Shown piece by piece: positions 4,074 through 52,540 of a stretch of 58,163 nt of DNA (positions are counted from its first letter, which is position 1; the number at the start of each line of letters is the position of its first letter). The notes beneath the pieces are model-generated. The model was not told the DNA's origin and made no database searches. It saw only the letters and a program-made list of their open reading frames with translations. A program made the translations under genes and the position numbers. This DNA comes from Pseudomonadota bacterium (GTDB lineage: Bacteria; Pseudomonadota; Gammaproteobacteria; Steroidobacterales; Steroidobacteraceae). Where the stretch lies: assembly GCA_025360865.1 (NCBI GenBank), contig JANYBG010000135.1, forward strand, positions 1-58,163. The letters run 5' to 3'.

Positions 4074-4083
4074 GGCGTGCGAT

Positions 4084-4587
4084 TTGCTCGACTACGCCAC
4101 CGAGTACACCCTGCGCCGCCTCATCCACCGTTCCACCCGGCTGCAGGACGTCGGCCGCGTGGAGGATCTCGCGCGCCTGTTCGCCCGGGGCGAGATCGTG
4201 TTCGCGGGAGTCGGCGAGGTCTTCGTCGGGACGGACGGCGTGCGCGCGCTCATGCGGCGGCACCTCTTCTACGACGCCAACGGGAATCCGGCGAACCCGG
4301 AGTCGCACTACGCCACCGGCCGGGCGCTGCACTACGTCTCGAACATCGACGTCTTCACGACCGAGGATGGCGGGCTGGGCGCCGAGTCGCATTTCCTCAT
4401 CGTCCAGCAGCATGGTAATCGCCCGCCGCGAATCATCACCGGTGGCCGCTACCGCGATTCCTTCGGCCACTCCGACGAGGGCTTCCATTTCCAGCGGCGA
4501 ATCGTCGAGGTGCACTTCATCGGCGAGACGGCTGCCTATCTCAGCACGCATCCCTGGGGCGAGCTTTCGCGCGCCGCGCGGCGATGA
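4084..4587 (+). CDS. SnoaL-like / NTF2-fold protein (second copy)
   Basis: This 167-residue protein starts at a TTG (4084), ten bases after the preceding stop; there is no better in-frame start. The N-terminus MLDYATEYTLRRLIHRSTRLQDVGRVEDLARLF matches the SnoaL_4 pattern of helix, short loop and DLARLF. HYATGRALHYVSNIDVF supplies the conserved His and Asn stretch seen in hydroxylase small-subunit-like members. It follows the DUF7065-type gene and precedes the LuxR-type regulator on the same strand, so the three are probably one transcript. It is related to but clearly diverged from the protein at 2514-2960. Its reaction is unknown. Confidence 0.75.
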   Translation: MLDYATEYTLRRLIHRSTRLQDVGRVEDLARLFARGEIVFAGVGEVFVGTDGVRALMRRHLFYDANGNPANPESHYATGRALHYVSNIDVFTTEDGGLGAESHFLIVQQHGNRPPRIITGGRYRDSFGHSDEGFHFQRRIVEVHFIGETAAYLSTHPWGELSRAARR

Positions 4588-4603
4588 CAGTACACTTGGG
4601 CGC

Positions 4604-5758: not shown

Positions 5759-5784
5759 CGCGCGACCCGACAGCTGATACGTCA

Positions 5785-9086: not shown

Positions 9087-11534
9087 GTGCAGAGCATTCC
9101 GTCCCACGCGCGAGTCGTGATCATCGGTGGCGGCATCGTCGGCTGCAGCGTCGCGTACCACCTGGGCAAGCGGGGCTGTACGGATGTGCTGTTGCTCGAG
9201 CGCAAGCGGCTCACCAGTGGCACCACCTGGCACGCCGCGGGTCTGGTGGGCCAGCTGCGCGCGACCCAGAACCTCACCCGCCTGGCGCAATACACCACCG
9301 CGCTCTACGAGGGTCTCGAACGCGAGACTGGCCAGGCGACCGGCTTCAAGCAGGTCGGCTCCATCGCGGTGGCCGCGAGCGAGGCGCGGTTCGAGGAACT
9401 CAAGCGCGGCGCATCCATGGCGCGCTGCTTCGGTCTTGAGGTACAGACGCTCTCGCCAGGTGCCGCGCAGGAGCGCTGGCCGCTGCTGTCGACCGAGGGA
9501 CTGGTGGGCGCGATATTCCTGCCCAAGGACGGCCAGACCAATCCGGTCGACACCACGCAGGCGCTGGCCCGCGGGGCGCGCGCCGCGGGCGTGCGTATCC
9601 TCGAGGACACGAAGGTCACCGCGATCCGCACCGCGCGCGGCCGCGTGACAGGTGTCGCGACGCAGCAGGGCGAGGTCCGCGCCGATATCGTGGTGAACTG
9701 CGCGGGCATGTGGGCGCGCGAGGTGGGCGGCTGGGCCAATGTCTCGGTGCCGCTGCACGCCGCCGAACACTTCTACATCGTCACCCAGCCGGTCCCGGGG
9801 TTGGCGTCCGGGCTGCCGATCCTGCGTGACGCCGATGCCGTGTCGTACTTCAAGGAGGATACCGGCAAGCTTCTTGTGGGCTGGTTCGAGGCGAAGGCCA
9901 AGCCCTGGGGCGGCGAGGGGATCCCGGAGAACTTCGCCTTCGACCAACTGCCCGCGGACATGGCGCACATTGAGCCGCTGTTCGCCGCGGCCATGCGCCG
10001 CGTGCCCGCGCTCGAGTCCGCCGGGGTACAGGTGTTCTTCAACGGACCGGAGAGCTTCACGCCCGACGACCGTTATCTTCTGGGCGAGGCGCCGGAGATG
10101 CGCGGGCTGTACGTGGCGGCCGGCTTCAATTCGATCGGCATCCAGTCAGCCGGCGGGGCGGGCAAGGTGCTCGCCGACTGGATCGTCGACGCGCACCCGC
10201 CGTCTGACCTGTGGGACGTCGATCTCCGGCGGTGCGCGCCGTTCCAGCGCAACCGGCGCTACCTGCGCGACCGGACCGAGGAGACACTCGGGCTGCTGTA
10301 CGCGATGCACTGGCCGTTCCGTCAGGTCGAGAGCGCGCGCGGCGTGCGCAAGTCCCCCCTGCATGACCGGCTGGCGGCCGCCGGGGCCTGCTTCGGGGAG
10401 GTGGCAGGCTACGAGCGCGCCAACTGGTTCGCGACCGGCGGCGCCGAGGCGCGCTATGAGTACAGCTACGGCCGGCAGAACTGGTTCGGGCCCTCGGCCG
10501 GGGAGCACCAGGCGGTGCGCGAGCAGGTAGGTCTCTTCGACCAGTCCTCGTTCGGGAAATTCGTGCTCAAGGGAGCCGATGCGACGCGCGTGCTGGGGCG
10601 GATCTGCGCGAACGACATCGACGTACCCGTGGACAGGGTGGTCTACACCCAGTGGCTCAATGAACGCGGCGGCATCGAGGCGGACGTCACCGTGACGCGC
10701 GAGGCCGAGGATTCGTATCTGATCGTCACGGGCTGCGCGACACAGGTGCGCGACTTTGGTTGGTTGTGCCGGGGCATCGCCGCGGATGCCCGCGCCGTCG
10801 CGATCGATGTCTCATCAGGCTACGCGGTGCTCGGCCTGATGGGCCCGCGCAGCCGTGACTTGCTCGCAAGCTTGACGGACGCGGACCTCGCCACGAGCGC
10901 GTTTCCCTTCGGGAGCTCGCGGATCATCGACCTGGGATACGCGCGCGTGCGCGCCAGCCGCATCACCTACGTGGGCGAGCTCGGCTACGAACTGTACATG
11001 CCCGCCGAGTTCGCGCAGTCGGTGTACGACGTCCTCGTCGCGGCCGGCGCGGACTTTGGCCTCAGACTCGCCGGCTACCATGCCCTGAACAGCCTGCGCA
11101 TGGAGAAGGCCTACCGGCACTGGGGCCATGACCTAGGCGATGAGGACACGCCCCTCGAGGCGGGCCTCGGCTTCGCCGTCGCCTGGGACAAGCCCGGCGG
11201 CTTCGTGGGCCTCGAGGCGCTGCGGCGCCAGCGCGAGTCAGGCGCTCGGCGCCGGCTCGTGGCGGTCGCGGTCGAGGGCACGGATCACCTGCTGTACCAC
11301 AACGAGCCGATCTGGCGGGACGACGAGCTGGTCGGACGAACCTCATCGGCGATGTTCGGCCATAGCATCGGGGCCGCGCTCGGGCTGGGCTATGTCCAGA
11401 ACAAGGGCGCCGCGGTCACCGACGACTGGATCGCAATAGGGCGCTACGCGGTCGAGGTCGCGATGGAACGGATCCCGGCGCGGGTCTCGCTGCGGCCCTT
11501 TTACGATCCGACCAGTGCGCGGGTGAGGGTTTGA
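9087..11534 (+). CDS. GcvT-family FAD-dependent dehydrogenase (dimethylglycine/sarcosine dehydrogenase type)
   Basis: The 815-residue protein starts at GTG 9087 behind GGGAGA. Residues 8-390 form a DAO-type flavoprotein: the FAD motif VVIIGGGIVGCSVAYHL and GTTWHAAGL, whose His49 is where mammalian dimethylglycine and sarcosine dehydrogenases attach FAD covalently. Residues 430-815 form the aminomethyltransferase (GcvT) half plus its C-terminal barrel (GIEADVTVTREAEDSYLIV, then ARVRASRITYVGELGYEL), which binds tetrahydrofolate and takes up the formaldehyde unit. The fusion oxidatively demethylates an N-methyl amine such as dimethylglycine or sarcosine. A diverged second copy starts 23 bases downstream; the two may form a heteromer or act on successive N-methyl groups. 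Confidence 0.88.
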   Translation: MQSIPSHARVVIIGGGIVGCSVAYHLGKRGCTDVLLLERKRLTSGTTWHAAGLVGQLRATQNLTRLAQYTTALYEGLERETGQATGFKQVGSIAVAASEARFEELKRGASMARCFGLEVQTLSPGAAQERWPLLSTEGLVGAIFLPKDGQTNPVDTTQALARGARAAGVRILEDTKVTAIRTARGRVTGVATQQGEVRADIVVNCAGMWAREVGGWANVSVPLHAAEHFYIVTQPVPGLASGLPILRDADAVSYFKEDTGKLLVGWFEAKAKPWGGEGIPENFAFDQLPADMAHIEPLFAAAMRRVPALESAGVQVFFNGPESFTPDDRYLLGEAPEMRGLYVAAGFNSIGIQSAGGAGKVLADWIVDAHPPSDLWDVDLRRCAPFQRNRRYLRDRTEETLGLLYAMHWPFRQVESARGVRKSPLHDRLAAAGACFGEVAGYERANWFATGGAEARYEYSYGRQNWFGPSAGEHQAVREQVGLFDQSSFGKFVLKGADATRVLGRICANDIDVPVDRVVYTQWLNERGGIEADVTVTREAEDSYLIVTGCATQVRDFGWLCRGIAADARAVAIDVSSGYAVLGLMGPRSRDLLASLTDADLATSAFPFGSSRIIDLGYARVRASRITYVGELGYELYMPAEFAQSVYDVLVAAGADFGLRLAGYHALNSLRMEKAYRHWGHDLGDEDTPLEAGLGFAVAWDKPGGFVGLEALRRQRESGARRRLVAVAVEGTDHLLYHNEPIWRDDELVGRTSSAMFGHSIGAALGLGYVQNKGAAVTDDWIAIGRYAVEVAMERIPARVSLRPFYDPTSARVRV

Positions 11535-11556
11535 GCCGGGCGCCGCGGGTGAGCAG

Positions 11557-13974
11557 GTGAACAGTCACGCGCGGGTACTCGTCATTGGCGGCGGCGCGGT
11601 GGGCTGCAGCGCGCTCTACCACCTGACCCGGCTCGGATGGACGGATTGCGTGCTCGTCGAGCGTGACGAGCTGACCGCGGGTTCCACCTGGCACGCCGCG
11701 GGCAACTGCCCGAATTTCTCCACCTCCTGGACTATCCTCAAGCTGCAGCGGTATTCGACCGCCCTGTATGCGCGGCTCGCCGGCGAGGCGGGTCACGAGA
11801 TCACCTACCACGCCACCGGCAGCATCCGCCTCGCCCATACCCGGGACCGTGCCGACGAATTCCACCACGTCCTCGCCCAGGCGCGCGCGCAGGGCATCGA
11901 CTTCGAGCTCCTCTCGCCTGCGCAGATCAGCGAGCGGCATCCTTTCGTCGAGCTCGACGGGATCCGGCTGGGCCTATGGGATCCGCACGACGGTGACATC
12001 GACCCGGCGCAGCTGACCCAGGCACTCGCCCGGGGCGCGCGGGAGGGTGGCGCTACGATCCACCGCCAGACGCGCGTGACGGCGATCCGGCGCGGGCCGG
12101 ACGGCTGGCGCGTTGAGACCAGCGCGGGGACGATCGACGCGGAGTACGTGATCAACGCGGCCGGTTACCGCGGGGGCGAGATCGCCGCGATGATCGGCGA
12201 GCAGCTGCCGATCGTCACGCTGTCGCACCAGTACCTGATCACGGACGACATCCCCGCCCTGGTCGAGCGGGGCGCGGCGCGCCTGCCGCTGCTGCGCGAC
12301 CCTGACGTGAGCTACTACCTGCGGCAGGAGCGCCACGGGCTGCTGCTGGGTCCCTACGAAGCCAACGCCCATGCACGCTGGCTCGAGGGGCTGCCGGGAG
12401 AATTCGCGCATCAGCTGTTCGAGGACGACCTTGCCCGCATCGAGAGCTACATCGAGGCCGCCTGCGTGCGCGTGCCCGTCCTGGCCTCCGCGGGTATCAA
12501 GCGGGTCATCAACGGGCCGATCCCCTACGCGCCGGACGGTAATCCGCTGATAGGACCCGCGGCGGGCGGTGCCAATTTCTTCCACTGCTGCGCCTTCACC
12601 TTCGGGATCGCGCAGGCAGGCGGCGCCGGCCGCGCCATCGCGGAATGGGTCGTGAACGGTGAGCCGGACTGGGACTTGTGGTCGTTCGATTCGCGGCGCT
12701 ACCTGGCGCGTGCCGAGGGTGGTCGCGCACTGGCCAAGGCCCGGGAGACTTATCGGCACGAATACGGGATCGGCTACCCGCAGGAAGAGCGCGCCGCGGG
12801 ACGTCCCGACAAGGTCTCCCCCATTCACGACCGGCTGGTGGAGCGCGGGGCGGTGTTCGGTGCGCGTGGTGGCTGGGAGCGCGCGGTGTACTACGCGATT
12901 GACGGCGATCCGGACGGCCCGGGAAGCTCGTTCCGCAGGCCGCACTGGCATCGCGCCGTGGCGCGCGAGTGCGCCGCGGTCGCCGGCGGCGCCGCGCTGC
13001 TGGACATGCCCGGCTTCACCCGGTTCGAGGTCACAGGCGCCGGTGCCGCCGCGTGGCTCGATCACATGATCGCAGGCGAGGTGCCACCGGTCGGCCGCAC
13101 CGCGCTGAGTTACCTGTGCTCACCGCGCGGCGGAATCGTCAGCGAGATGACGGTGTCGCATTTGGCGGAGGGACTTTTCTGGCTGGTGTCCGCGGCCGCG
13201 GCGGAACGCCACGATGAGCACTGGCTCCATACCCATCTCACGCAGCGCCACGGGCCGGTCGGCATCGCCAATGTCACTGGCGACTATGGAGCGCTCGTCG
13301 TGACCGGTCCGCGCTCGCGAGAGGTGCTGGCCGGCATCACCGAGGCTGAACTCTCGAGCAGGGCCTTCCCATGGCTCGCCGTGCGCCCCATCGGCATCGG
13401 TGATGCGCTCGTCGTCGCCATGCGGGTGAGCTACGCGGGAGAACTCGGGTGGGAGCTGCACATCCCGGTCGGGCAAGTGGCGGCCGTGTATGAGCGCCTG
13501 CTCGCCGCGGGCCGCCCGGGGTCAATTGCGCACTTCGGCCTCTACGCCATGGAGAGCCTGCGACTGGAGAAGTGTTACAGGAGCTGGAAAGCGGACCTGA
13601 CGCGTGAATACTCCCCGTTCGCCGCGGCGCTCGGCCGCTTCGTGCGCCTGGGTAAGGCGGCGGACTTCATCGGCCGGGAGGCGCTGCGCAGGGCGGCGGC
13701 CCCGACGCAGCTGTTCGTGCCGCTGCTGGTGGAGGCGCGCGACGCGGATGCCGCGCCCGTATCCATTGTCCACCACGGGGAGGAGCGGGTCGGGCTCGTG
13801 ACCTCGGGCGGCTACGGCTACCGCCTGGACCGCAGCATCGCGCTCGCCTACGTCCGCGCGGACCTGGCGCTGCCCGGCACCGAGCTCGAAGTGGAGGTAC
13901 TCGGCGAGCGTTGCCCGGCGGTAGTCGCGCGTGAGCCGCTATACGATCCGGACAACGCGCGCCTGCGGGCCTGA
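11557..13974 (+). CDS. GcvT-family FAD-dependent dehydrogenase (second, tandem copy)
   Basis: This 805-residue protein has the same two-part layout as its upstream neighbour. It has the FAD fold VLVIGGGAVGCSALYHL, the putative FAD-linking His46 in STWHAAGN, then a GcvT half (GGIVSEMTVSHLAEGLFWLV, VAMRVSYAGELGWELHI) and a C-terminal barrel. It starts at GTG 11557, 23 bases after the previous stop, behind GAGCAG, so the two are surely cotranscribed. Sequence identity between the copies looks moderate, indicating an old duplication with split substrate preference rather than a recent tandem repeat. The likely substrates are N-methylated amines; sarcosine or a related compound is the best guess. 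Confidence 0.87.
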   Translation: MNSHARVLVIGGGAVGCSALYHLTRLGWTDCVLVERDELTAGSTWHAAGNCPNFSTSWTILKLQRYSTALYARLAGEAGHEITYHATGSIRLAHTRDRADEFHHVLAQARAQGIDFELLSPAQISERHPFVELDGIRLGLWDPHDGDIDPAQLTQALARGAREGGATIHRQTRVTAIRRGPDGWRVETSAGTIDAEYVINAAGYRGGEIAAMIGEQLPIVTLSHQYLITDDIPALVERGAARLPLLRDPDVSYYLRQERHGLLLGPYEANAHARWLEGLPGEFAHQLFEDDLARIESYIEAACVRVPVLASAGIKRVINGPIPYAPDGNPLIGPAAGGANFFHCCAFTFGIAQAGGAGRAIAEWVVNGEPDWDLWSFDSRRYLARAEGGRALAKARETYRHEYGIGYPQEERAAGRPDKVSPIHDRLVERGAVFGARGGWERAVYYAIDGDPDGPGSSFRRPHWHRAVARECAAVAGGAALLDMPGFTRFEVTGAGAAAWLDHMIAGEVPPVGRTALSYLCSPRGGIVSEMTVSHLAEGLFWLVSAAAAERHDEHWLHTHLTQRHGPVGIANVTGDYGALVVTGPRSREVLAGITEAELSSRAFPWLAVRPIGIGDALVVAMRVSYAGELGWELHIPVGQVAAVYERLLAAGRPGSIAHFGLYAMESLRLEKCYRSWKADLTREYSPFAAALGRFVRLGKAADFIGREALRRAAAPTQLFVPLLVEARDADAAPVSIVHHGEERVGLVTSGGYGYRLDRSIALAYVRADLALPGTELEVEVLGERCPAVVAREPLYDPDNARLRA

Positions 13975-15628: not shown

Positions 15629-17564
15629 TCAGGTCCGGGGGCACCGTCGCGGCGGGAACCGACGGACGCGAGCCACCGCCAGCGCGTGCACGGGCGGTGG
15701 GACGCCGGTCGAACCACTCGCGCACGTCGACATCGAGGCCGACGCCGTGCATGTAGTTGTAAAGCGCCTTGCGCAGGCCGCCGCCCAGGAAGTCGTGATC
15801 CGCGCCCACCGGATCCTCGAACGGGAGGTCGTTGAGCGCGAACGTGACATCCTCCGGCGGTCGCAGGGTGATGCCGTACTTCCTCGGCTGCAGACCGATG
15901 GGTGAGTGCGCGGTCGCCGCGAACCGGTGCCAGTACGCCGACTGGATGCACCCGGCCGCGAACAGCTGGCGCACCCGCTCGAGCGCATCGATCGTGTCCT
16001 GCGCGGTCTCCGTCGGGAAGCCGTACATCAGGTACGCGTGCACCATGATCCCGGCGTCGCTGAACGCCCGGGTCACCCGCGCCACCTGTTCGACGGTGAC
16101 GCCTTTATGCATGAGCTTGAGGAGCCGGTCGGACGCCACCTCGAGGCCGCCGCTCACGGCCACGCAGCCGGAGGAGGCGAGCAGGCGGCACAGCTCGGGC
16201 GTGAAGGTCTTCTCGAAACGGATGTTCCCCCACCAGGTGATGCTGAGCTTTTCCTTGATCAGGCGCTGCGCGAGCGCGCGCATGCCCGCGGGCGGCGCGG
16301 CCTCATCGACCAGGTGGAAGCCGGTCTCGTCGGTCTCCGCGATCAGCGCCCGGATGCGCCGCACGACGAGGTCCTCCCCCGGACGGTCGTAGCGGCCGAT
16401 GTAGTCGAGCGACACGTCGCAGAACGAGCACTTCTTCCAGTAGCAGCCATGCGCCAGCGTGACCTTGTTCCAGCGTCCGTCCGACCAGAAGCGGTGCATC
16501 GGGTTCAGCATTTCGATGAGCGACACGTACTCGCCAAGCGGTAGTCCGTCATACGTCGGGATGCCGGTGTCCTTTTGCGGGATGTCGTGTTGGGTCGGGT
16601 CGCTTTTCAAGACGACCCGCGCGGCTTCGCGCACGTACGTGCGGACGAGGGGTGCCTCGCGGCCCCGCAACCGTCTCAGCAGGTTCAACATCGGGCGCTC
16701 GCCGTCATCGAGCGTGAGGTAGTCGAAGTAGTCGAATACGCGTGGGTCCCGCAGCGAGCGCAGCTCGGTGTTCACCCAGCCCCCGCCCAGTATCAGCGTC
16801 GTGTCGGGCGCGGCCGCGCGGATCGCCCGTGCCATGCGGAACGCGCCATAGACGTTGCCCGGGAAGGGCGCCGTCAGGGCGACGACATCCGGCGGTGAGC
16901 TGACAAGCTCGCGGGTCAGCTCGTCGAGCGTGTCATCCACCAGCGTGGGTTCGCCGTTCAGCGCCTCGTGAAGCGAGTCGAACGAGGCGGCGCTGGCGGC
17001 CAGTCGTTCGCCGTAGCGCGCGAGCTCGAACCGTGGGTCGATGCCCAGCCGCCAGACGTCGGCGAGGTCATCGACGTAGAGGCTGGCGAGGTATCGCGCC
17101 TGCTCCGTCGTGCCCAACGTGCCGAACGCGGACAGCAGCTGTTCATCAAGCGCCACGTGCTCCGCGGAGGGCGGCGGGCTGAGGTGCTCGAAGCGGGGGC
17201 CTTCAGGAAGGAACGCCCGTCCGGCGATACGAAAGGCGAGGCTGGGATCGCGTCGCTGCAGGAGCCGGATGGCCGGCTCGACGGTTTCGATGTAACGCTC
17301 GGTGTGCCGCAGGAAGTGGGCGATGGCGGGCGGAACCGGGAGGCGGCCACGGGCGGCGCGCTTGCGGCGACGCAGGACTTCGGCCATGCGCGCGAGGCCC
17401 GCGGCGCAGAACAGCCGCAGGAACAGAGCGAGTGAGGCATCGGCCTGTCTTAGTTCCAGGCCGAGTTCCTCGGCGTGCAGGCGCAGGAAGCCCATCAGGT
17501 ACGCCGTGGCGGGGTACGGCGTATTGAGCTGAGTCATCGGCGGCGTGGCGAGCAGAATGCGCAT
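15609..17564 (-). CDS. B12-binding-type radical SAM protein
   Basis: The 651-residue protein has an N-terminal opening MRILLATPPMTQLNTPYPA typical of the B12-binding radical SAM superfamily, a Rossmann-like region near residues 220-300 (VVALTAPFPGNVYGAFRMA, TTLILGGGWV), and the radical SAM barrel from about residue 360. The cluster motif is GCYWKKCSFCD, that is C-x4-C-x2-C rather than the textbook C-x3-C-x2-C. Downstream GGLEVASDRLLKLMHKGV and HAYLMYGFPTET match the SAM-binding strands. It presumably carries a 4Fe-4S cluster; the reaction is unknown. rluE overlaps its 3' end. The DxHxxG cobalamin signature is not obvious, so B12 use is uncertain. Confidence 0.85.
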   Translation of the reverse strand: MRILLATPPMTQLNTPYPATAYLMGFLRLHAEELGLELRQADASLALFLRLFCAAGLARMAEVLRRRKRAARGRLPVPPAIAHFLRHTERYIETVEPAIRLLQRRDPSLAFRIAGRAFLPEGPRFEHLSPPPSAEHVALDEQLLSAFGTLGTTEQARYLASLYVDDLADVWRLGIDPRFELARYGERLAASAASFDSLHEALNGEPTLVDDTLDELTRELVSSPPDVVALTAPFPGNVYGAFRMARAIRAAAPDTTLILGGGWVNTELRSLRDPRVFDYFDYLTLDDGERPMLNLLRRLRGREAPLVRTYVREAARVVLKSDPTQHDIPQKDTGIPTYDGLPLGEYVSLIEMLNPMHRFWSDGRWNKVTLAHGCYWKKCSFCDVSLDYIGRYDRPGEDLVVRRIRALIAETDETGFHLVDEAAPPAGMRALAQRLIKEKLSITWWGNIRFEKTFTPELCRLLASSGCVAVSGGLEVASDRLLKLMHKGVTVEQVARVTRAFSDAGIMVHAYLMYGFPTETAQDTIDALERVRQLFAAGCIQSAYWHRFAATAHSPIGLQPRKYGITLRPPEDVTFALNDLPFEDPVGADHDFLGGGLRKALYNYMHGVGLDVDVREWFDRRPTARARAGGGSRPSVPAATVPPDLIEGFLG

Positions 17565-17647
17565 GGAGGACGCAGGGTAGCGCAGCTGGCCCGGTAGTTG
17601 CGACCGAGCCGCCGAGGCTTAAACCGTCGGGAAAGGCGGGCGGATCG

Positions 17648-17676
17648 TTGTCTGGAAGTCATTGACCGAATATAGT
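17648..17676 (+). promoter_or_regulatory. Sigma-70 type promoter for the sulfotransferase gene
   Basis: TTGTCT (17648-17653) and TATAGT (17671-17676) are separated by exactly 17 bases. The operator at 17661-17689 covers the -10 element, the classic arrangement for repression. Transcription would begin near 17683, about 50 bases before the chosen start codon. Confidence 0.55.
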
Positions 17677-17689
17677 GTTTCGGGTCAAT
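17661..17689. promoter_or_regulatory. Operator 1: ATTGACC-N15-GGTCAAT
   Basis: Perfect 7-bp inverted arms ATTGACC (17661-17667) and GGTCAAT (17683-17689) with a 15-base spacer. The same arms and spacer occur at 22277 and 22527, each time at the head of a gene in this locus. The site overlaps the -10 of the predicted promoter. The TetR protein encoded at 25715 is the likely binder. Confidence 0.72.
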
Positions 17690-17732
17690 GACGAAACGGT
17701 CGGTCGCGCGAAGCGAGAATCTAGGGGGCGGT

Positions 17733-19001
17733 ATGGGGGACAAGACTCTGGATAGGCGCGCAGCCTACGAGATGGGGCCAAGGCCGGACTGGATAAGCCG
17801 GCTCAACGCGGAAGGCGAGATCCTCGATTCGCGGCACGTGGTGCCTCTGGATGCCGCCTCGCTAATCGATGCCGCCTGCGACAGCACGGGCCTTGCGGAC
17901 TTCGGCGATGGGCCCTGGCGCGAACACCTCGACATCCTGCTGCGCGCCCTTCAGGACGAGGCGAACTTGCACCTCCTGGGAAGGCTTTACACCCGGTCCG
18001 ACATGCTCATGTATCTGCAGGGACGCCTGCAGATCATCGAATGGTACACGCGGCATCCGGAGATCGATGACGAGCAGATCACGGAGCCGGTATTCGTGAT
18101 CGGGCTCGGTCGTTCGGGAACGACTATCCTGCAGGAGACGCTCGCCCAGGACGACCAGTTCCGTTTCGTACTGAAGTGGGAAGCGTTGTTTCCGTGCCCG
18201 CCGCCGGCCGAGGAGTCATACCGAAGCGACCCTAGGATTCAGCGCGCGCACGATCTCATCACTCTCCAGGATCGCATAGCACCGGAATGGAAGTCCCAGC
18301 ACGCAGTCGCCGGCAATTTGCCCGTGGATTGCCTCGAGTTCACGCAGGGCTGCTTCGCTTCCGACCTGTTCCTGGCCTCGTTCCAGATTCCCTCTTACGA
18401 AGCCTACCTGGCCAAGCTCGACGCCACCGAGTACTACCGGTGGCACCGAAAGATACTGAAGCTCCTGCAATGGCGCTACAAGCGTAAGCACTGGTTGCTC
18501 AAGGGATCCAATCACCTGCCGGTGATCCCGCAGCTGCTGACGGTGTATCCCGATGCCAAGATCATCTTTCCCGCCAGGGATCCAATCGTCGCGGTTTCCT
18601 CCATCGTCAGCGTGCTGGGGACGATCTACTCCTTTCGCACGGACACCCCCTTCAGCAGCTGCACCTATGAGAAATGGATGCTTATCGACAAGATCGCGGA
18701 GATGCTGAACAAGCTCGTGACCTGGGTTAAGGATGGCACACTGCGACCGGGGTTCTTCGCGACGATCCAGTACCTTGAGTTCTCGGCAGACCCCGGCTCG
18801 GCGCTGCGCGGCCTTTACAGTGACTTGTTGCTAGATCTATCGCCGCAGACCGAGCGACGCATGAGTGCCTACTTAGTGGGGAAGCCTAAGCACGTCTACG
18901 GGAAACACACGTATGAAGTGGGTACCCCTGATGAGATCGCCAGGGAGCGCGAGCTGCTCAGGCCTTACCAGAACTTCTTCAGGGTCGAAAGCGAGGTTTG
19001 A
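17733..19001 (+). CDS. Sulfotransferase family protein
   Basis: The 422-residue protein starts at ATG 17733 behind AGGGGG; an in-frame ATG at 17688 lies inside the operator and is rejected. The 5'-phosphosulfate-binding loop is VFVIGLGRSGTTILQE (about residues 120-135), and a 3'-phosphate-binding-type segment IIFPARDPIVAVSSIVSV follows near 290. It would transfer sulfate from PAPS to a hydroxyl group of a small lipid-like acceptor. Large members of this Sulfotransfer_3 type occur often in steroid- and terpenoid-degrading bacteria. It is the first gene behind operator 1, and the DUF1214 gene follows with essentially no gap. The acceptor is unknown. Confidence 0.84.
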   Translation: MGDKTLDRRAAYEMGPRPDWISRLNAEGEILDSRHVVPLDAASLIDAACDSTGLADFGDGPWREHLDILLRALQDEANLHLLGRLYTRSDMLMYLQGRLQIIEWYTRHPEIDDEQITEPVFVIGLGRSGTTILQETLAQDDQFRFVLKWEALFPCPPPAEESYRSDPRIQRAHDLITLQDRIAPEWKSQHAVAGNLPVDCLEFTQGCFASDLFLASFQIPSYEAYLAKLDATEYYRWHRKILKLLQWRYKRKHWLLKGSNHLPVIPQLLTVYPDAKIIFPARDPIVAVSSIVSVLGTIYSFRTDTPFSSCTYEKWMLIDKIAEMLNKLVTWVKDGTLRPGFFATIQYLEFSADPGSALRGLYSDLLLDLSPQTERRMSAYLVGKPKHVYGKHTYEVGTPDEIARERELLRPYQNFFRVESEV

Positions 19002-19003
19002 CC

Positions 19004-20107
19004 GTGGCGATGCCAAGCGGCGCGGGTGGTAATGGAGCCGCCGACGCGGCGGCGGCGGCAGAGGCGTGGGGTGCGTATTGTGACAGTCTGAAAGTCGCAG
19101 GCCAGCAGCTGCTACGCACTGACTTCCCGATCGACAGGCTTGACCTCGCGGAGGGGCTGCGGTACCTCGTGAGGCTGGTATTCACCTCCATTGATCGCGG
19201 CGTGGAGGGGGCGGACCCGGCCCACCCACTCCTGTACCCGCTGTGCAATGAAAGAATCAAGGTGGGCGGGGACAACCCGGACAACCGGTACTACGCCGCG
19301 GCGATCAGTGACCAGTACGAATACGTTCTCATGGGGGATTTCCGCGACTGCGGCTATTTCAGCGTGGTCGCGACTGGCAAGGTGGATGGCAGTGAGACCG
19401 TCATAAGCGGATCATTGCGGGGCGACGACCTCGAGGTGCTGGCTGACGGCATGACCCGGATCCGCATCTCCGCGCGCAGCTCCGGGCGCGATGTCCTGAC
19501 CACCAACGCGCGCACTAGCCTGCTGATCGTGCGTTGCACAATCGAGGGCCTACCGGGAAAGCAGGTGCCGCTGACACTTCGGCGAGTCGACAAGCCGGAG
19601 CCGCCAGTAGCGCTGTCAGTCGCTGAAATGGCGTCCCGGTTGACCGCAAGCGCGCAGTTCGTGCGCAACGCCTCCGCGTTCTTCGGTGACTTCACGGCTA
19701 GATTCCAGGCTCACATCAACCGCCTGCCGTTATTTCCCGACCAGAAGTACCTGGTATCGATTGGCGGCGATCCGAACATCCTGTACTACCTGTCCGCCTG
19801 GGCGCTCGGGGACAATGAGGTCCTGTGCCTGACGATGCCGCGCATCCCGCGCTGTTCTACCTGGAACCTGCAGCTTTGCAATGTCTGGTTTGAATCGCTG
19901 GACTACACCGCAAGCCAGATACACCTCAACAGTAACAGCGCGATCCTCGATACCGGTGGCGGCGTGACGATCCGGATCGCCGGGCGCGATCCGGGTGGGG
20001 ACAACTGGCTGCGGACCCTCGGCCACACCAGTGGGCTGCTCTGCATGCGGCTGGTAGGGGCCGAGGAGGCCGCGATCGTGAATGCCGCCGTAGGCAAGTT
20101 GCCCTAG
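19004..20107 (+). CDS. DUF1214-type protein
   Basis: The protein has about 367 residues. Possible starts are TTG 18998 (overlapping the previous stop), GTG 19004 and ATG 19010; GTG 19004 is preferred because GCGAGG ends 7 bases before it. The C-terminal 100 residues hold the DUF1214 pattern: TWNLQLCNVWFESLDY, GGGVTIRIAGRDPG, then NWLRTLGHTSGLLCMRL. The N-terminal half is DUF1254-like in layout with AISDQYEYVLMGDFRDCGYFSV. No signal peptide or membrane segment is evident. Such proteins frequently sit beside sulfotransferases in sphingomonad and steroidobacter catabolic loci. Function is unknown; translation is probably coupled to the sulfotransferase. Confidence 0.75.
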   Translation: MAMPSGAGGNGAADAAAAAEAWGAYCDSLKVAGQQLLRTDFPIDRLDLAEGLRYLVRLVFTSIDRGVEGADPAHPLLYPLCNERIKVGGDNPDNRYYAAAISDQYEYVLMGDFRDCGYFSVVATGKVDGSETVISGSLRGDDLEVLADGMTRIRISARSSGRDVLTTNARTSLLIVRCTIEGLPGKQVPLTLRRVDKPEPPVALSVAEMASRLTASAQFVRNASAFFGDFTARFQAHINRLPLFPDQKYLVSIGGDPNILYYLSAWALGDNEVLCLTMPRIPRCSTWNLQLCNVWFESLDYTASQIHLNSNSAILDTGGGVTIRIAGRDPGGDNWLRTLGHTSGLLCMRLVGAEEAAIVNAAVGKLP

Positions 20108-20131
20108 GCCGGACCGTCCTGGAGCGCATCG

Positions 20132-20476
20132 CTAGCGCGTGACGGGTGTCCCGATGGGCACGTAGAACTGGCAGTCAACGTCCGTATAATCCAGCGCGGT
20201 GGACGGGGGGATGCGTGCCACGTTTTCCACGCTCCACAGCCTACGGACGGTTTCCTCGATGCTGTCAGTTTCGATCTCATAGACGGCGAGGTACTCGTGC
20301 CGTGCCTTCTGAAGGCCGGCGGGCAGCGCGACTGCGGCCACACGATAGCGCCGTCCGGAAACCAGAGTCGGAGAGCGGACCATCTCCGGCAGCAGGAGGC
20401 GGTCGTACCATTCATTGAATTCGGCTTCGCGACCTGGGGCCGCGTTGGACCGGACCGTCATAATGTACCTGGCCAT
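20132..20476 (-). CDS. Small dimeric alpha-beta barrel protein (DUF4286/EthD-like)
   Basis: The 114-residue protein begins MARYIMTVRSNAAPGREAEFNEWYD, the standard pattern of a beta strand followed by EFNxWYD and a helix seen in DUF4286 and EthD-like proteins. A second half HEYLAVYEIETDSIEE gives the other half-barrel. Members are often annotated without function and occur in aromatic and steroid degradation clusters, where they may bind or cyclise a substrate. It lies 66 bases downstream of the KstD-like gene on the same strand and is probably expressed with it from operator 2. It converges on the DUF1214 gene with a 24-base gap. Confidence 0.72.
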   Translation of the reverse strand: MARYIMTVRSNAAPGREAEFNEWYDRLLLPEMVRSPTLVSGRRYRVAAVALPAGLQKARHEYLAVYEIETDSIEETVRRLWSVENVARIPPSTALDYTDVDCQFYVPIGTPVTR

Positions 20477-20542
20477 TGGGATTTTCCTTCAGCAGCAGGC
20501 GCGTTGTGATTCTGCGCTCAATGCACCGGGTATCTTCACTTC

Positions 20543-22273
20543 CTAAGCGCCCGGCGCGGTTCGCTCCAAGGCAAGCGGGCCTGTGGCCGGATCCAACGGA
20601 AGCCCGCTGGCGTTGCGGGCGGCTATATAGCCGAATGTCATCGCAGGACTGAGCGTACCTCCGGCACCCGGGTAGGCGTGCCCCATCATGCTCGCCGTAG
20701 TATTGCCGGTCGCATAGAGGCCGCCGATGGGCTTGAGGTCACGATCCAGGACCTGGGCATGCTCGTTGCACAACAGGCCGCCGTTCGTGCCGATGTCTCC
20801 CGGGATGATCGGCAGCGCATAGAAGGGAGGGGTGGTCAGCGGCGCGAGGTTCGGGTTTGGCTGAACCTTGGGATCGCCGTAGTAGCGGTCGTAGGCGCTG
20901 TCCCCGCGCCCGAACTCAGGATCGCGACCCCGTTCAGCGTTCAGATTGAACTGCTTTACCGTGCCGGTAAGGCCGCCGGCGGGAATTGCAAGTCGCGCCT
21001 CAAGCTCGCGCCAGGTACGAGCCTTGACTAGAGAGTGCCGCAGTCCCGCCTGATGCAACGCGAGGGGAATTCCGGGAATTAGTGGACCGACGGGATAGCG
21101 GCGGCGATATCTCTCGTCGAATATGAGATACGAAGGGGAGGTCCGCGCCCCCGGACGGTCAGCCTCGATCATCCTGAGTCCGGCGATGTCGTATGCCAGC
21201 GCCTCGTTCATGTATCGGCGACCGGCCTGGTTGACGATGATGCAGCCGGGGAAGGCGCGCTCGAACGTGAGCAGGCGGGCCCTCGGTTCATCGGGGAGCT
21301 TGATCATTGGCCCCCACCACGCCGAGTCCATGTTGCCTAGCGCAGCTCCTACGGTCAGCCCGAGCTCAAGGCCGTCGCCGGTGTTGGTTTCCAATGCACC
21401 ACTGGACGAGGGGTCCCACGCGCCTGGCAAATGAGCACGCCGCAATGCCGCGCTGCCCTCGAATCCGCCAGTGGCCATCACGACCGCCCGCCGGGTCACG
21501 ATCGATTGCGCGACGCCCAGATGGTCAACAATCGCGCCGGTTACCCGTCCGCTTGCGTCCCGTATTAGGCTGGTAACCGGGGAGTTAAGCCAGAGGGGAA
21601 CGTCGTAGCGCTCCAAGGAGTAGCGCAGACGTCCAAGCAGTGCCCCGCCGGCGGTGAGAAAGCGGTTTCTCCGGGAGACCAGTCGCTGCCCGATGTCCAA
21701 GTAATAGCGGGCAAGGACCTTCACCAGCGTGCGCTGCCAGCCCGGCGGCCGGTGTAACAGCGGAAAGACATCGTCCATCGTGAATGCGATGCGGTTGAAG
21801 AGCAGCGTGGCCGGCACCGGCGGCTGCAGTGATTTCAAATGCGGGCCCAGTCGCCTGCCGTCGAACGGCAGCACGTCATGCGTTCGGTATCCCAGCTTCG
21901 CGCCTGGGGCCTCGGGCCGGTAGTCGGTGTAGGGAATGGAGCGGTATCGCACCTCGGAGTTGTGCTGCAGCCACCCGAGCATATGGCGCGCGGACTCCGC
22001 GAAGGCGCGGATATTGGCATCGGCTACGTCAGCGCCGACGATCGCGTGCAGGTACTCAGACGCCTCCGCCACGGAATCATGGCCGCCGGCCGCGGCGCCC
22101 AGTTCGCTCGCGGGCACCCAGATGAAACCACCCGAGGTCGCGGACGTGCCCCCCCAGTAGTTGGTCTTTTCCACGACGAGCACGCTGAGTCCGGCGGCGG
22201 CGGCGACCAGCGCGGCTGTCAGGCCGCCGGCCCCAGAGCCCGCCACCAAGACATCAATTTCAAGTCTCTTCAT
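20543..22273 (-). CDS. KstD-like FAD-dependent dehydrogenase (3-ketosteroid delta-1-dehydrogenase family)
   Basis: The 576-residue protein starts at ATG 22273 (MKRLEIDVLVAGSGAGGL); an ATG at 22288 lies inside operator 2. The FAD fold VAGSGAGGLTAALVAAAAG is followed by GGTSATSGGFIWVP. The three regions that carry the catalytic tyrosines in Rhodococcus KstD have counterparts: IPYTDYRPEAPGAK, AFPGCIIVNQAGRRYMNEA, and the C-terminal NTTASMMGHAYPGAGGTL with AMTFGYIA. These support 1,2-dehydrogenation of a 3-keto-steroid or related enone, rather than fumarate reduction or urocanate reduction. The exact substrate is open. No signal peptide is seen, so it acts in the cytoplasm. Confidence 0.85.
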   Translation of the reverse strand: MKRLEIDVLVAGSGAGGLTAALVAAAAGLSVLVVEKTNYWGGTSATSGGFIWVPASELGAAAGGHDSVAEASEYLHAIVGADVADANIRAFAESARHMLGWLQHNSEVRYRSIPYTDYRPEAPGAKLGYRTHDVLPFDGRRLGPHLKSLQPPVPATLLFNRIAFTMDDVFPLLHRPPGWQRTLVKVLARYYLDIGQRLVSRRNRFLTAGGALLGRLRYSLERYDVPLWLNSPVTSLIRDASGRVTGAIVDHLGVAQSIVTRRAVVMATGGFEGSAALRRAHLPGAWDPSSSGALETNTGDGLELGLTVGAALGNMDSAWWGPMIKLPDEPRARLLTFERAFPGCIIVNQAGRRYMNEALAYDIAGLRMIEADRPGARTSPSYLIFDERYRRRYPVGPLIPGIPLALHQAGLRHSLVKARTWRELEARLAIPAGGLTGTVKQFNLNAERGRDPEFGRGDSAYDRYYGDPKVQPNPNLAPLTTPPFYALPIIPGDIGTNGGLLCNEHAQVLDRDLKPIGGLYATGNTTASMMGHAYPGAGGTLSPAMTFGYIAARNASGLPLDPATGPLALERTAPGA

Positions 22274-22276
22274 GTC

Positions 22277-22305
22277 ATTGACCAACATTTGCGCGATTGG
22301 TCAAA
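22277..22305. promoter_or_regulatory. Operator 2: ATTGACC-N15-GGTCAAA
   Basis: ATTGACC (22277-22283) and GGTCAAA (22299-22305) are spaced by 15 bases, identical to the other two sites except for the last base. It sits immediately upstream of the KstD-like start (22273, minus strand). A possible -35 (TTGACG on the minus strand, 22330-22335) lies upstream; the -10 is not clear. A bound repressor here would block transcription start or the ribosome region. Confidence 0.68.
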
Positions 22306-22495
22306 GATTTGGCATGCATTCACCCGCGACGTCAAGTGGAGGCTGGGCCCTCAAGCCGCGCCCGCAGGGCCGGCGGTGGATGGCGGATACACTCAACGCG
22401 AACGGGGGAAAAATCGGCTATCGCCTGCTCATAACGGTAGCCGCGGACAGGTCGCGGACGGCGACGCGAGACGCGGCCCCGCGCCGCTGCGGCGC

Positions 22496-22523
22496 TTGAC
22501 TTGTAAGACATTACGGCTAGGAT
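22496..22523 (+). promoter_or_regulatory. Sigma-70 type promoter for the TonB-dependent receptor
   Basis: TTGACT (22496-22501) and TAGGAT (22518-22523) are 16 bases apart. Operator 3 begins at the very next bases, so the predicted start of transcription (about 22530) falls inside it. This is a typical repressor-controlled promoter layout. Confidence 0.6.
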
Positions 22524-22526
22524 GCG

Positions 22527-22555
22527 ATTGACCGATTGCTATACAAACGGTCAAT
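22527..22555. promoter_or_regulatory. Operator 3: ATTGACC-N15-GGTCAAT
   Basis: This is the best copy: CGATTGACCG (22525-22534) and CGGTCAATCG (22548-22557) form perfect 10-bp arms. Core arms and the 15-base spacing equal those of operator 1. It lies 27 bases before the start of the TonB-dependent receptor, directly after its predicted -10 element. Confidence 0.75.
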
Positions 22556-22582
22556 CGATAGGCGATTGCTAGGGGGTGCCAC

Positions 22583-24727
22583 GTGAAAAGTACACACTCT
22601 GCCATGCTGATGTTTGGGCTGGCGCTGTGCGCCGCTGGGGGGTTACGCCCCACGACTGCGAGCGCCGCGCAATCCAGCTCCGAACTGCAGGAGGTTGTCG
22701 TCACGGCCGAGCGGCGCGAGACGAATCTGCAGGATGCGCCTCTGTCGATCCTCGCGTTTGACGAGGGATCGCTGTCGAACATGGGAGTGACGGGGCTCGG
22801 TGACCTGACCCACGCCGTTCCGAACCTGACGCAGATTACCTGGTCCGTCGGCAATTCGACACTCAGGCTCTACATCCGGGGAATCGGCCAGACCGACAGT
22901 CAGCTGACCGGGGACTCCCCGGTGGGCGTCTATCTGGATGGGGTCTACGTGGCACGCACCTCAGGCCTCGCCCAGAGCATGCCGGATATCGAGCGCGTGG
23001 AAGTGCTGCGCGGCCCGCAGGGCACCCTGTTCGGACGCAATACCACGGGTGGCGCGATCAACATCGTCACGAAGCCACCCACGACCGATGATTTCAAGAT
23101 CTTGCAGACAGTGCGGGTTGGGAATTACGGCGCGTTCAAGTCGAGCACAATGCTCAACATGCCGGTGACCGATGAATTCGCAGTGAAGGTCGCGTATTTG
23201 GCGGATCAGCGCGGCGGAACGGTCGACAACACCGGCGGCGGGAACGATTTCAACCAGTGGGACAACAAGGCCGCGCGCATCGCCGCGCGCTGGAAGCCAA
23301 GCGCGGCGGTGACGCTGGACTACGAGTGGGATGATTCGCGCTATGTAACGACCGCAGACCTGCTTTACCTGGATACGGTGAGTTCGCTGTTCACAGGCGT
23401 GCTTCCAGAGACGAAGCATCGCGTCAACAGTTTCGCGCTGCCCTTGCCGGTTCCTGACAGCCACACCCGCACGGGCGGGAACGAGCTAACCGCGAGCATC
23501 GAGACCGGAATCGGGGAGCTCAAGTCGATCTCAGCCTACCGGACCCTCGACTTCGACGCCTACCAGGATCAGTCTGCGAACTCATTCCTCGAGATATTCC
23601 GTAACAAGCAGCTGATCGACCACCAGCACCAGTTCTCCGAGGAACTGCAGCTGATCGGGGGCACACCGGACACCGCACTGACCTATGTCGCGGGCCTCTA
23701 TTACTTCCGTGAGGCGGGCGATGAGGTGGCAACGGATGAGATTGGCCTTATAAATCTGGACCTGCCGCGGCACATCACGGCTACAAACAAGGCCTATGCG
23801 GCGTATACCTCCTGGACCTGGCGCCCGGGTGGCACTTCGCGCTGGTCCTGGACACTGGGCGGGCGGTATTCCAAGGACGAGCGCGAGGCGGACAACTTCA
23901 TCGTGGCTCCCGTCTCGGCCAGCTACGACAAGTTCACGCCCTCGGGTGATGTCAGCTTCAAGCTCACTGATACCAGTTCGATCTACGGCCGAATCTCAAC
24001 CGGCTATGACGCCGGTGGCTTCAACATGCGCGCGGCGGACTTCAGCCACGCCTTTGGCCCGGAGTCCTTGACCGCCTATGAAATCGGCTGGAAATCGGAA
24101 CTCCTGCAGCACCGCCTGCGCTTCAATGGCGCGGTGTTCCTATCCGACTACACGGACATCCAGTTCACTATTAAGGTGCCCGGCCAGTCCAATCCGGCGC
24201 TTACCGAGACACTCAATGCAGGCAAGGAGCGCCTCTACGGCCTGGAATTCGACGCTACCTACCTGTTCACCGAGTCGCTGATCGGCTCTTTGTCCTACGG
24301 GCATCTCGCGGGTGAATTCAAGAAGGCCGCTCCCGGTGACGACTTATCGCTCTACCGTCCAGCCAACGCGCCTAAGAACACCCTCCATGCGACTATCGAC
24401 TGGACGATGGCTCACATCGCAAAAGGAGAGCTCGGGCTGTACCTGGACTATGCGTACCAGGCCTCCACCTTCACCACGCCCAGGAACCCCTATCCGGGCA
24501 GCGATGAGATCCCCTCATATGGTCTGTTCGATGCGCAACTGAAGTGGAGCCGCGACGGAGTCATTGGTGGCCGCGGCGGAGTCAGTGCCGCGCTTTGGAT
24601 CAAGAACGCCTTTGACAAGGAATACTTCGTGGATGCGGCTTCGGTATTCGAAGGCCTGCATGCGAATCGACTGGTTCGCTACGGCGATCCGCGCACTTAT
24701 GGCGTCGAAGTGAGCTTGCGATACTGA
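22583..24727 (+). CDS. TonB-dependent receptor
   Basis: The 714-residue outer-membrane protein starts at GTG 22583 behind AGGGGG. It has a signal peptide (LMFGLALCAAGG, cleavage near ASAA), then the TonB box region LQEVVVTAERRETNLQDAP. The plug domain carries LRLYIRGIGQTD, VYLDGVYVARTSG and RVEVLRGPQGTLFGRNTTGG. The 22-strand barrel ends in VEVSLRY with the terminal aromatic residue needed for assembly. The plug type (IRGIGQ, SPVGVYLDGVY) is the one found in sphingomonad and steroidobacter receptors for large hydrophobic or steroid-like substrates, not the classic siderophore type. It is the gene behind operator 3 and leads an apparent receptor-SDR-TetR unit. Confidence 0.93.
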   Translation: MKSTHSAMLMFGLALCAAGGLRPTTASAAQSSSELQEVVVTAERRETNLQDAPLSILAFDEGSLSNMGVTGLGDLTHAVPNLTQITWSVGNSTLRLYIRGIGQTDSQLTGDSPVGVYLDGVYVARTSGLAQSMPDIERVEVLRGPQGTLFGRNTTGGAINIVTKPPTTDDFKILQTVRVGNYGAFKSSTMLNMPVTDEFAVKVAYLADQRGGTVDNTGGGNDFNQWDNKAARIAARWKPSAAVTLDYEWDDSRYVTTADLLYLDTVSSLFTGVLPETKHRVNSFALPLPVPDSHTRTGGNELTASIETGIGELKSISAYRTLDFDAYQDQSANSFLEIFRNKQLIDHQHQFSEELQLIGGTPDTALTYVAGLYYFREAGDEVATDEIGLINLDLPRHITATNKAYAAYTSWTWRPGGTSRWSWTLGGRYSKDEREADNFIVAPVSASYDKFTPSGDVSFKLTDTSSIYGRISTGYDAGGFNMRAADFSHAFGPESLTAYEIGWKSELLQHRLRFNGAVFLSDYTDIQFTIKVPGQSNPALTETLNAGKERLYGLEFDATYLFTESLIGSLSYGHLAGEFKKAAPGDDLSLYRPANAPKNTLHATIDWTMAHIAKGELGLYLDYAYQASTFTTPRNPYPGSDEIPSYGLFDAQLKWSRDGVIGGRGGVSAALWIKNAFDKEYFVDAASVFEGLHANRLVRYGDPRTYGVEVSLRY

Positions 24728-24772
24728 GCGATCGGGACACTGGGCCGGCGGAAGCGTCGAAGGAGCGAGGTC

Positions 24773-25609
24773 ATTTCAAACAGCGAACACGCCACGCGCG
24801 CCGGCAAGCTTGCGGGAAAGGTCGCGATCGTCACCGGAGCCGCCCAGGGCACGGGTGAGGCGATCGCGCGTCGGTTCGTGGCTGAGGGGGCCCGGGTGAT
24901 CCTCGCGGACGTCCGGGTAGCGCAGGGCGAGGCGCTTGCGCGCGAGCTGGGTGACAACGCCGAGTTTGTCGAATTGGACGTCGGCGAGGAGAGCCATTGG
25001 GCCCGCGTGGTTGCCCGGGCGGAGCATCGCTTTGGCGGGGTCGACATCCTCATCAACAATGCCGCGGTTCTGGTGATGGCTCCTCTGGAAGAGACCTCGC
25101 TTTCCGACTATGAGCGCGCGGTACGCGTCAACCAAGTGGGCCCCTTCTTGGGCATGCGGACCGTGGTCCCGGGCATGAAGCGCCGCGGGGGCGGGTCAAT
25201 CGTCAACATCGGTTCCACTGATGGGGTCTTCCCGGGCGACCAGGGCCTGATGGCCTACGGGGCAACGAAGTGGGCCCTGCGAGGCATGACGAAGATCGCT
25301 GCGGTGGAACTCGGGCAGCACGGGATCCGGGTGAACATCGTCAACCCGGACGCCGGCAATCCGCTCATCGGACGGCCGTTCTTTCCTCCGGAAGTGATCA
25401 GCGATGCGAAGCTGCACGAGCTGGGCAACCGCATGGCCTACCGAGTGCTGAAGCGCCTGCGACCGGACCGCAAGCGCGTCGACGAGATCGTCCCGATGGT
25501 GCTGCTTCTGGCCTCAGAGGACGGTTCCGCGTGCACGGGTGGCGACTATCCCGTCGACGGCGGATATAGTGCGGGTATGAGCGGACTCGCGCAACTATTA
25601 GGACTTTAG
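24773..25609 (+). CDS. SDR dehydrogenase, hydroxysteroid dehydrogenase-like, probable ATT start
   Basis: The reading frame needs its N-terminal Rossmann strand (GKVAIVTGAAQGTGEAIARR), which lies upstream of the first in-frame GTG (24878). Between the in-frame stop at 24725 and this strand there is no ATG, GTG or TTG. The best-placed codon is ATT at 24773, 7 bases after AAGGAG (24760-24765); CTG 24740 is the other option. From ATT the protein has 278 residues. It shows NNAAVLVMAPLEET, the catalytic Ser in IGSTDG, YGATK and the late PFFPPE loop, resembling 3-alpha/20-beta-hydroxysteroid dehydrogenases. It presumably oxidises a ring or side-chain hydroxyl of the compound imported by the receptor upstream. 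Confidence 0.8.
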   Translation: MSNSEHATRAGKLAGKVAIVTGAAQGTGEAIARRFVAEGARVILADVRVAQGEALARELGDNAEFVELDVGEESHWARVVARAEHRFGGVDILINNAAVLVMAPLEETSLSDYERAVRVNQVGPFLGMRTVVPGMKRRGGGSIVNIGSTDGVFPGDQGLMAYGATKWALRGMTKIAAVELGQHGIRVNIVNPDAGNPLIGRPFFPPEVISDAKLHELGNRMAYRVLKRLRPDRKRVDEIVPMVLLLASEDGSACTGGDYPVDGGYSAGMSGLAQLLGL

Positions 25610-25714
25610 TATTCGGTCACGAGCGCTGCGGCCCCGCGAGGGCACGAGGTCCGCGTACCGGCTGCACGTATTGCGTGGCGATCCCGCGGCCGCTCTGGCA
25701 CGATTGCGCTGACC

Positions 25715-26458
25715 ATGGCAGATAAGCAACGCTCCGAGCCGCAGACAGATGCCTACGGACCCCGGCAACTCAAGTCATTAGCGCGCCGGCGGCAGGTCCT
25801 GGCCGCGGCCAACCGTTGCTTCAGTCGCCACGGATTCGCGAAGACGTCGATCCAACTGGTCGCCACGGAGGCCGCGGTCTCCAAAGCGCTCGTTTTCGCG
25901 TTCTTCGGCCACAAGGCCGCGCTCTATGACGCGGTGATCGAGCAGACCCTAGTCACGTGGACGGGATTCGCTGAACACGAGGCCGCGCGCTTTCACGGTC
26001 GCCCGGAGCGGGAACTGGCAAGCATGTTCCGTGGCTCATTTGAGTTCGCGGCGCATTCCCCGATGCTGCGAGTGCTCATGTCACGACGCGATCGCGAGTT
26101 GCAGGAGAAGCTAACCAGTTTGCCGCGGATCGTGCGCGACTGGCGGAGGCGCTTCGCGGACGTGGTCCAGCGTGGGATTAGTCAGCAGGTCTTCAGAGCG
26201 GACCTTGACCCCCAGTTGACCGCTCTGGTGATCCACGACGTCCAGCACCTGTACCTCGATCAGATGGTCGCAGGCCAGAAAGGTGACTACGACGCCGACA
26301 GAATGGAAATGGCTCTTGGCCTTCTTCTCGCCGGGATCCGTGTGGTGCCAAAGGGCCCGATCCCGGGCGAGGAACGCGTTGCCAGCGCCAGGAGAGCGCG
26401 CATCGGTGGGTCAGCGCCTACCGCGAGGTCGCCCGCAAGCACCCGGCGACGGCGCTGA
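25715..26458 (+). CDS. TetR/AcrR family transcriptional regulator
   Basis: The 247-residue protein begins at ATG 25715. The N-terminal helix-turn-helix (about residues 28-75) reads VLAAANRCFSRHGFAKTSIQ, then EAAVSKALVFAFFGHKAALY, the standard TetR layout. The ligand domain follows; a long basic, disordered C-terminal tail (RRARIGG, ARSPASTRRRR) is unusual. It lies downstream of the receptor and SDR genes on the same strand with a 105-base gap. As the only repressor-type gene in the locus it is the best candidate to bind the three ATTGACC-N15-GGTCAAT operators. No such operator precedes its own gene, so it is either constitutive or read from operator 3. Confidence 0.86.
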   Translation: MADKQRSEPQTDAYGPRQLKSLARRRQVLAAANRCFSRHGFAKTSIQLVATEAAVSKALVFAFFGHKAALYDAVIEQTLVTWTGFAEHEAARFHGRPERELASMFRGSFEFAAHSPMLRVLMSRRDRELQEKLTSLPRIVRDWRRRFADVVQRGISQQVFRADLDPQLTALVIHDVQHLYLDQMVAGQKGDYDADRMEMALGLLLAGIRVVPKGPIPGEERVASARRARIGGSAPTARSPASTRRRR

Positions 26459-26487
26459 GCCGGCCCGGGACGCTCCTAAGCGATCCT

Positions 26488-38530: not shown

Positions 38531-38631
38531 CACCGAAGGCTCCCGCACCCGTTGCGAGGTCGTCGCGCTTCGCCCCGCGCCCGATACCACCCGAACGAGG
38601 CGGGATCGCGGCTGTCCCATGCGGATTCAGC

Positions 38632-52258: not shown

Positions 52259-52540
52259 CGGACTCCGATCGCAAGTATTGCGCGACTCACCCGCAGCGGG
52301 GACGGTCCCGGGAAGATACCACCGGTAGCGGTTCGCCACCCGTGGAGCGCCTAGCGACTGCCTCCAGCCCTCCCGGGCGGCGCACTAGGGGAGGCGAAAT
52401 TCGCCGTCTGGAGGAGGAGAGGGCGTCGAGCTTGCGCCCGCGGTTGATTCCGCAGTTCGCGTTCCGGGGCCGGACCCCAGATTCAGTGTCGGCGACCTAC
52501 CGCGCCCCGCATCGGTGGGTCAGCGATCTCGCGGAACAAA

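Follow-up and report, generated by a model that had tools for sequence, protein, structure and literature searches.

Three copies of one inverted repeat, ATTGACC-N15-GGTCAAT, stand close together in the stretch of DNA analyzed here (58,163 nucleotides, hereafter the window), each ahead of a different group of genes. Do these copies form one control system, and which protein would read them? The initial annotation proposed a compact regulon, with the TetR gene at 25715 as the source of the binding protein. We consider it quite likely that the three sites are operators of this TetR protein (25715-26458), which would most likely be a ligand-released repressor of a local uptake-and-oxidation cluster.

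Putative operators and genes of the cluster

The features on which the argument rests are listed below; L025 denotes a related locus in a second genome, described in the next section.

17648..17676, plus strand: promoter-like TTGTCT-17-TATAGT, by consensus match only, overlapping operator 1
17661..17689, plus strand: operator 1, ATTGACC-N15-GGTCAAT, no mismatch, at the head of the sulfotransferase-DUF1214 unit
17733..19001, plus strand: sulfotransferase-family protein (Sulfotransfer_3, family match), 49% identical to its L025 counterpart
18998..20107, plus strand: DUF1214-like protein, 32-36% identical to four plasmid proteins annotated DUF1214
20132..20476, minus strand: small protein (open reading frame) downstream of the KstD-like gene
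20543..22273, minus strand: KstD-like FAD dehydrogenase (FAD_binding_2), under the NCBIfam cut-offs, 62% identical to its L025 counterpart
22277..22305, minus strand: operator 2, TTTGACC-N15-GGTCAAT on the minus strand, one mismatch, at the head of the KstD-like unit
22307..22335, minus strand: weak promoter-like TTGACG-17-CCAAAT, seen by eye and absent from the scan, ending 1 bp before operator 2
22496..22523, plus strand: promoter-like TTGACT-16-TAGGAT, from the scan, ending 3 bp ahead of operator 3
22527..22555, plus strand: operator 3, no mismatch, at the head of the TonB receptor-SDR-TetR unit
22583..24727, plus strand: TonB-dependent receptor (family matches)
24776..25609, plus strand: short-chain dehydrogenase (SDR; family match), 76% identical to the L025 SDR
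25715..26458, plus strand: TetR-family regulator, 66% identical over 208 residues to the L025 TetR, proposed binder of the three operators

The positions, arms and 15-bp spacer first reported for the three sites were confirmed (mismatches 0, 1 and 0), and the gene positions bear out that one site heads each of three different units. The outer arm ends span 29 bp and the arms lie 22 bp apart; at operator 1 the symmetry can be extended to TCATTGACC...GGTCAATGA, up to 33 bp. The gene labels were likewise upheld by family matches to Sulfotransfer_3, FAD_binding_2/KstD-like, TonB receptor, SDR and TetR_N, the latter being PF00440 with E 2.5e-11 and 43.6 bits against a cut-off of 24. The DUF1214-like protein matched no Pfam family, and the small protein had no match in Pfam or NCBIfam. 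The best solved relative of the KstD-like protein is the 3-oxosteroid 1-dehydrogenase 7p18, and the nearest solved relatives of the SDR are 3-alpha,20-beta-hydroxysteroid dehydrogenases. Because both proteins are nearest to solved steroid dehydrogenases, the substrates of the cluster are likely steroid-like. The GC3 of the cluster genes (17600-26460) was 0.75-0.80, that of the three genes to the left 0.86-0.89 and that of the four genes to the right 0.77-0.84.

The pattern was then counted across the source genome (G000; 3,814,095 bases in 257 contigs, 96% complete). Base composition would give about 0.004 exact and 0.20 one-mismatch occurrences in the whole genome; for 58 kb the figure is 0.003. 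With at most one mismatch, only the three cluster sites matched; two other places appeared at two mismatches, and up to three mismatches gave 42 places against 28 for a reversed-pattern control. The further sites that had been expected ahead of other catabolic genes did not appear, as the rest of the source genome held none with at most one mismatch. As the arm was chosen after inspection, these chance figures flatter the motif, and the independent test is the related locus L025.

The related locus and its three sites

Comparison of the TetR protein with genome contigs gave 53 pattern matches, a search that reaches close relatives only and from which some records were possibly left out. One relative was confirmed, at L025 in a MAG labelled Rhodospirillales (genome G366, contig C266). 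Identities between its TetR, SDR, KstD-like and sulfotransferase proteins and those of the window are given in the list above; its gene order is rearranged relative to the window cluster. The L025 TonB receptor matches the window receptor weakly (33% over 243 residues, E 5e-25). The window receptor is closer to a second C266 receptor, at L027 (E 9e-51), than to the site-adjacent one, and no good operator site was found at L027 (best score 7.7). Also at L025, a 970-aa protein (3782-6694, minus strand) combines a TonB-receptor plug with a C-terminal OmpA domain and looks an unusual fusion.

Allowing up to three mismatches, the window pattern matched L025 three times against 0.66 expected, a number reached by 5 of 200 shuffles, and each of these sites differs from the window consensus by 3 mismatches. 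They precede a TBDR-molybdopterin-sulfotransferase run, a SnoaL-KstD-TetR run and an SDR-SDR-LLM-SDR-LLM (luciferase-like) run, that is, one site per putative operon as in the window, the L025 operons being defined by strand and spacing. The spacer is 15 in all six sites, the upstream arm in gene direction is invariably TTGACC (6 of 6) and TCA is retained in the downstream arm. Across the 15 middle bases dyad symmetry is weak, at 19 of 42 (p 0.03).

Within the partner region, each set of sites could be recovered from the other. A matrix trained on the window ranked the three L025 sites 1-3 (21.9, 14.6 and 12.8), followed by 9.9, which overlaps the third site, and 6.8; a matrix trained on L025 ranked the three window operators 1-3 (23.9, 23.6 and 18.4; next 11.7). 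None of the dinucleotide shuffles, 300 in one set and 150 in the other, gave three matches at that level, while shuffling L025 produced a single match as good as its third site in 57 of 300 cases. The window matrix gave no match of 12 or more in 101,870 bases drawn from other loci. At genome scale, cross-trained covariance models did not recover the partner sites at E<=10 (150 of 590 candidates scored in G366, 26 of 26 in G000), so that the cross-species evidence is local. A covariance model of all six sites, for which 150 of 260 candidates were scored in G366, found no place other than those six at E<=10, a result that is partly circular. The loose pattern TTGACC-N17-TCA occurred at 22 places in G366, including a cluster of three in C266, against 19 for the control; five other such places all scored under 12 by the window matrix.

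The motif was absent from four sphingomonad plasmid regions that contain relatives of 2-4 cluster proteins but whose best TetR match, 28% over 69 residues, is not close. Their best six-site scores were 4.7-11.8, and 11.8 was reached by 23 of 200 mononucleotide shuffles. The top sphingomonad score with the L025 matrix (13.2, at L048:9324) fell on an AT-rich stretch without TTGACC and was rejected.

The proposed regulator and its probable mode of action

Taken at the level of sequence, palindromic operators stand at linked units and are conserved along with the TetR gene, as in a local regulon, in one relative. The compact, locus-specific regulon of the initial annotation is therefore supported by sites with at most one mismatch that are confined to the cluster and by their recurrence at the heads of the L025 operons. 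The reading frames of the window that reach 100 aa or more were compared at E<=1e-8 with L025 and L027, two regions that together cover the 39-kb contig C266 except for about 1.2 kb. The proteins in common were the cluster enzymes, the receptor, one SDR outside the cluster and TetR, and TetR was the only regulator among them.

A different, unlinked regulator, such as a LysR or BirA-like protein or a ribbon-helix-helix tetramer, might bind the sites, with TetR merely travelling along. The separation of the arms by two helical turns suits tetrameric or wide-reaching regulators, and in NikR, GTATGA half-sites are described at opposite ends of the inverted repeat (PMC4486848). Nevertheless, we judge this unlikely. 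The site is restricted to the cluster in both genomes within the limits of the search, as expected of a linked regulator, and no second regulator common to the window and the L025/L027 regions was found.

Relatives of TetR are otherwise scarce. Among 150 family genomes, of which at least 133 had a TetR match at E<=0.001, no ortholog was detected, the best match past the window having E 9e-12 and 43% identity over 77 residues; none was found in the sampled same-genus genomes either. At E<=1e-30 or 1e-25, nothing past G000 and G366 appeared in 296 genomes of the order, 5 of the order of G366, 385 of the class of G366, 369 of the class and 398 of the phylum; these order, class and phylum samples are overlapping, partial draws, and the large searches scored the best 6-9 candidates per genome. 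In plasmids, 93 records matched TetR at E<=1e-5, with 27-33% identity in the 10 of 93 listed, and no relative was confirmed in viral contigs. The SDR of the relative, searched at E<=1e-60 in 367 genomes of the class of G366, was found in G366 only. The cluster may have been acquired. Structure prediction of TetR from two sequences reached a pLDDT of 47, too poor for use.

If TetR is the regulator, it would bind all three operators and the regulated set would comprise the TonB receptor, the KstD-like dehydrogenase, the steroid-type SDR, the sulfotransferase, the DUF1214 protein and probably TetR itself. The position of the sites relative to promoters informs on the sign of this control. A sigma-70-like scan of 17550-25800 passed two elements, which is the chance level (1.8 +/- 1.4), and both lie at operators, namely 1 and 3. 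Numbers of scan matches were at chance level in the window and L025 alike. The L025 TonB-receptor promoter (6767-6795) has the same geometry as that at 22496-22523 in the window: in both, the -35 is TTGACT and the -10 ends 3 bp before the operator. This clear geometry is common to 2 of the 6 sites; operator 1 instead overlaps its TATAGT -10, and operator 2 reaches to within 3 bp of the likely KstD start codon (ATG, 22273).

With three bases between the -10 and the operator at the TonB-receptor promoters, a repressor bound there would cover the start point, and this common geometry suggests repression at the start of transcription. TetR would then cover the -10/start region and block initiation, and would be released by a substrate or intermediate of the cluster, probably steroid-like. 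A promoter of its own is possible for the TetR gene, which lies 105 bp past the SDR gene in the window and 186 bp past the KstD gene in L025. Activation by TetR, or a dual role, appears improbable at these sites. It would suit L025 site 2, ahead of which no good promoter was found, and activation is known for some TetR proteins such as AtrA (PMC3511530); however, sites 1 and 3 and the site at the L025 TonB-receptor promoter are in a blocking position, either overlapping the -10 or lying after it. A role of the inverted repeats in RNA, as 5' hairpins acting on stability or attenuation, is very improbable: the window copies fold well (z -5.7, -2.7 and -6.2) and operators 2 and 3 are probably inside the transcribed leader, but the L025 copies have no convincing fold (z -1.8, -0.4 and +0.7), compensatory changes were absent from 7 pairs in 6 sequences (a weak test given the near-invariant columns), and what is conserved is the TTGACC sequence rather than the pairing.

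Proposed binding mode and comparison with known systems

TetR repression remains the preferred reading, and the wide spacing of the arms has to be accommodated by the protein. Single-dimer TetR operators measure 15-17 bp and operators of dimers of dimers 22-32 bp (PMC4150764). The recognition helices of a TetR dimer are described as about 37-38 A apart, approximately one DNA turn (PMC6449355, PMC4150764), with 38 A for the CprB dimer (PMC4150764). By this geometric comparison, an arm separation of 22 bp is too far for one TetR dimer. As the arms are two turns apart and operators of 22-32 bp take two dimers, we infer a pair of dimers, which would fill the site of 29-33 bp and make its strongest contact at the upstream TTGACC arm. 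The length of the sites fits the operators of QacR, CgmR, Ms6564 and CprB, which are 22-32 bp long and bind two dimers (PMC4150764). QacR is described with 15-bp half-sites and a 6-bp spacer (PMC4486848), whereas here two short, strong arms surround 15 weakly conserved bases.

The best NCBIfam match of the window TetR is RutR of E. coli, over the HTH only and at 41.2 bits, below the cut-off of 368. The half-site of RutR is TTGACC, the same as here. The RutR spacer is 4 bases and not 15, that is, about one turn shorter than here. Arm pairs with a RutR-type four-base spacer scored no better than those with other spacers, in the window and in L025, and were rejected. If the RutR geometry is simply transferred, both inner subunits would fall on one spot, so that the detail could be unusual. 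A TetR protein might thus read TTGACC arms two turns apart through same-face dimers that meet over the center, each RutR-type half-site being placed one turn outward, unlike the TetR-DNA complexes in the papers cited here; we propose this arrangement only tentatively and regard it as rather doubtful. The RutR operator is described as a palindrome of about 16 bp (PMC10891134), in contrast to the 15-base spacer found here, and the regulated genes differ. K52 of RutR is said to contact guanine, by comparison with QacR (PMC10891134). By match coordinates, K57 of the window TetR stands opposite this residue.

KstR and KstR2 are likewise TetR-family regulators of steroid genes, but their gene set and lineage differ from those found here. 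Their operators are short palindromes, and the contrast in spacing drawn with them in the initial annotation rests on these. KstR2 is the second-ranked solved relative of the window TetR, at 36 bits, a score like that of other TetR proteins and which does not indicate orthology. The bsd I bile-salt cluster of Caenibius tardaugens offers a TetR protein with proposed palindromic operators in a proteobacterial steroid cluster (PMC12882949). In a comparison of operators, those proposed there, ATAGGGCCATTG and GCATGCGGGATGC, are short and unrelated in sequence to the present sites.

Among the matches listed from open-licence papers, we found no paper describing an ATTGACC-N15-GGTCAAT operator. Local TetR regulons are already known as a type; the one proposed at this cluster is new. 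It provides a testable operator and regulator for an uncharacterised and probably steroid-directed cluster, known so far from two genomes. Also, it may offer a ligand-responsive switch, and with arms so unusually spaced it lends itself to a simple test of how long operators are occupied by TetR proteins.

Outside the cluster, other genes of the window deserve mention. A tandem pair at 9087-13974 encodes a DAO-GCV_T (dimethylglycine-dehydrogenase-like) protein of 815 aa and then one of 805 aa that looks alike. Two DUF885 proteins are encoded by convergent genes at 36860-40329, and in a single protein encoded at 50936-52339 (minus strand) a TonB C-terminal domain comes after a protein kinase domain.
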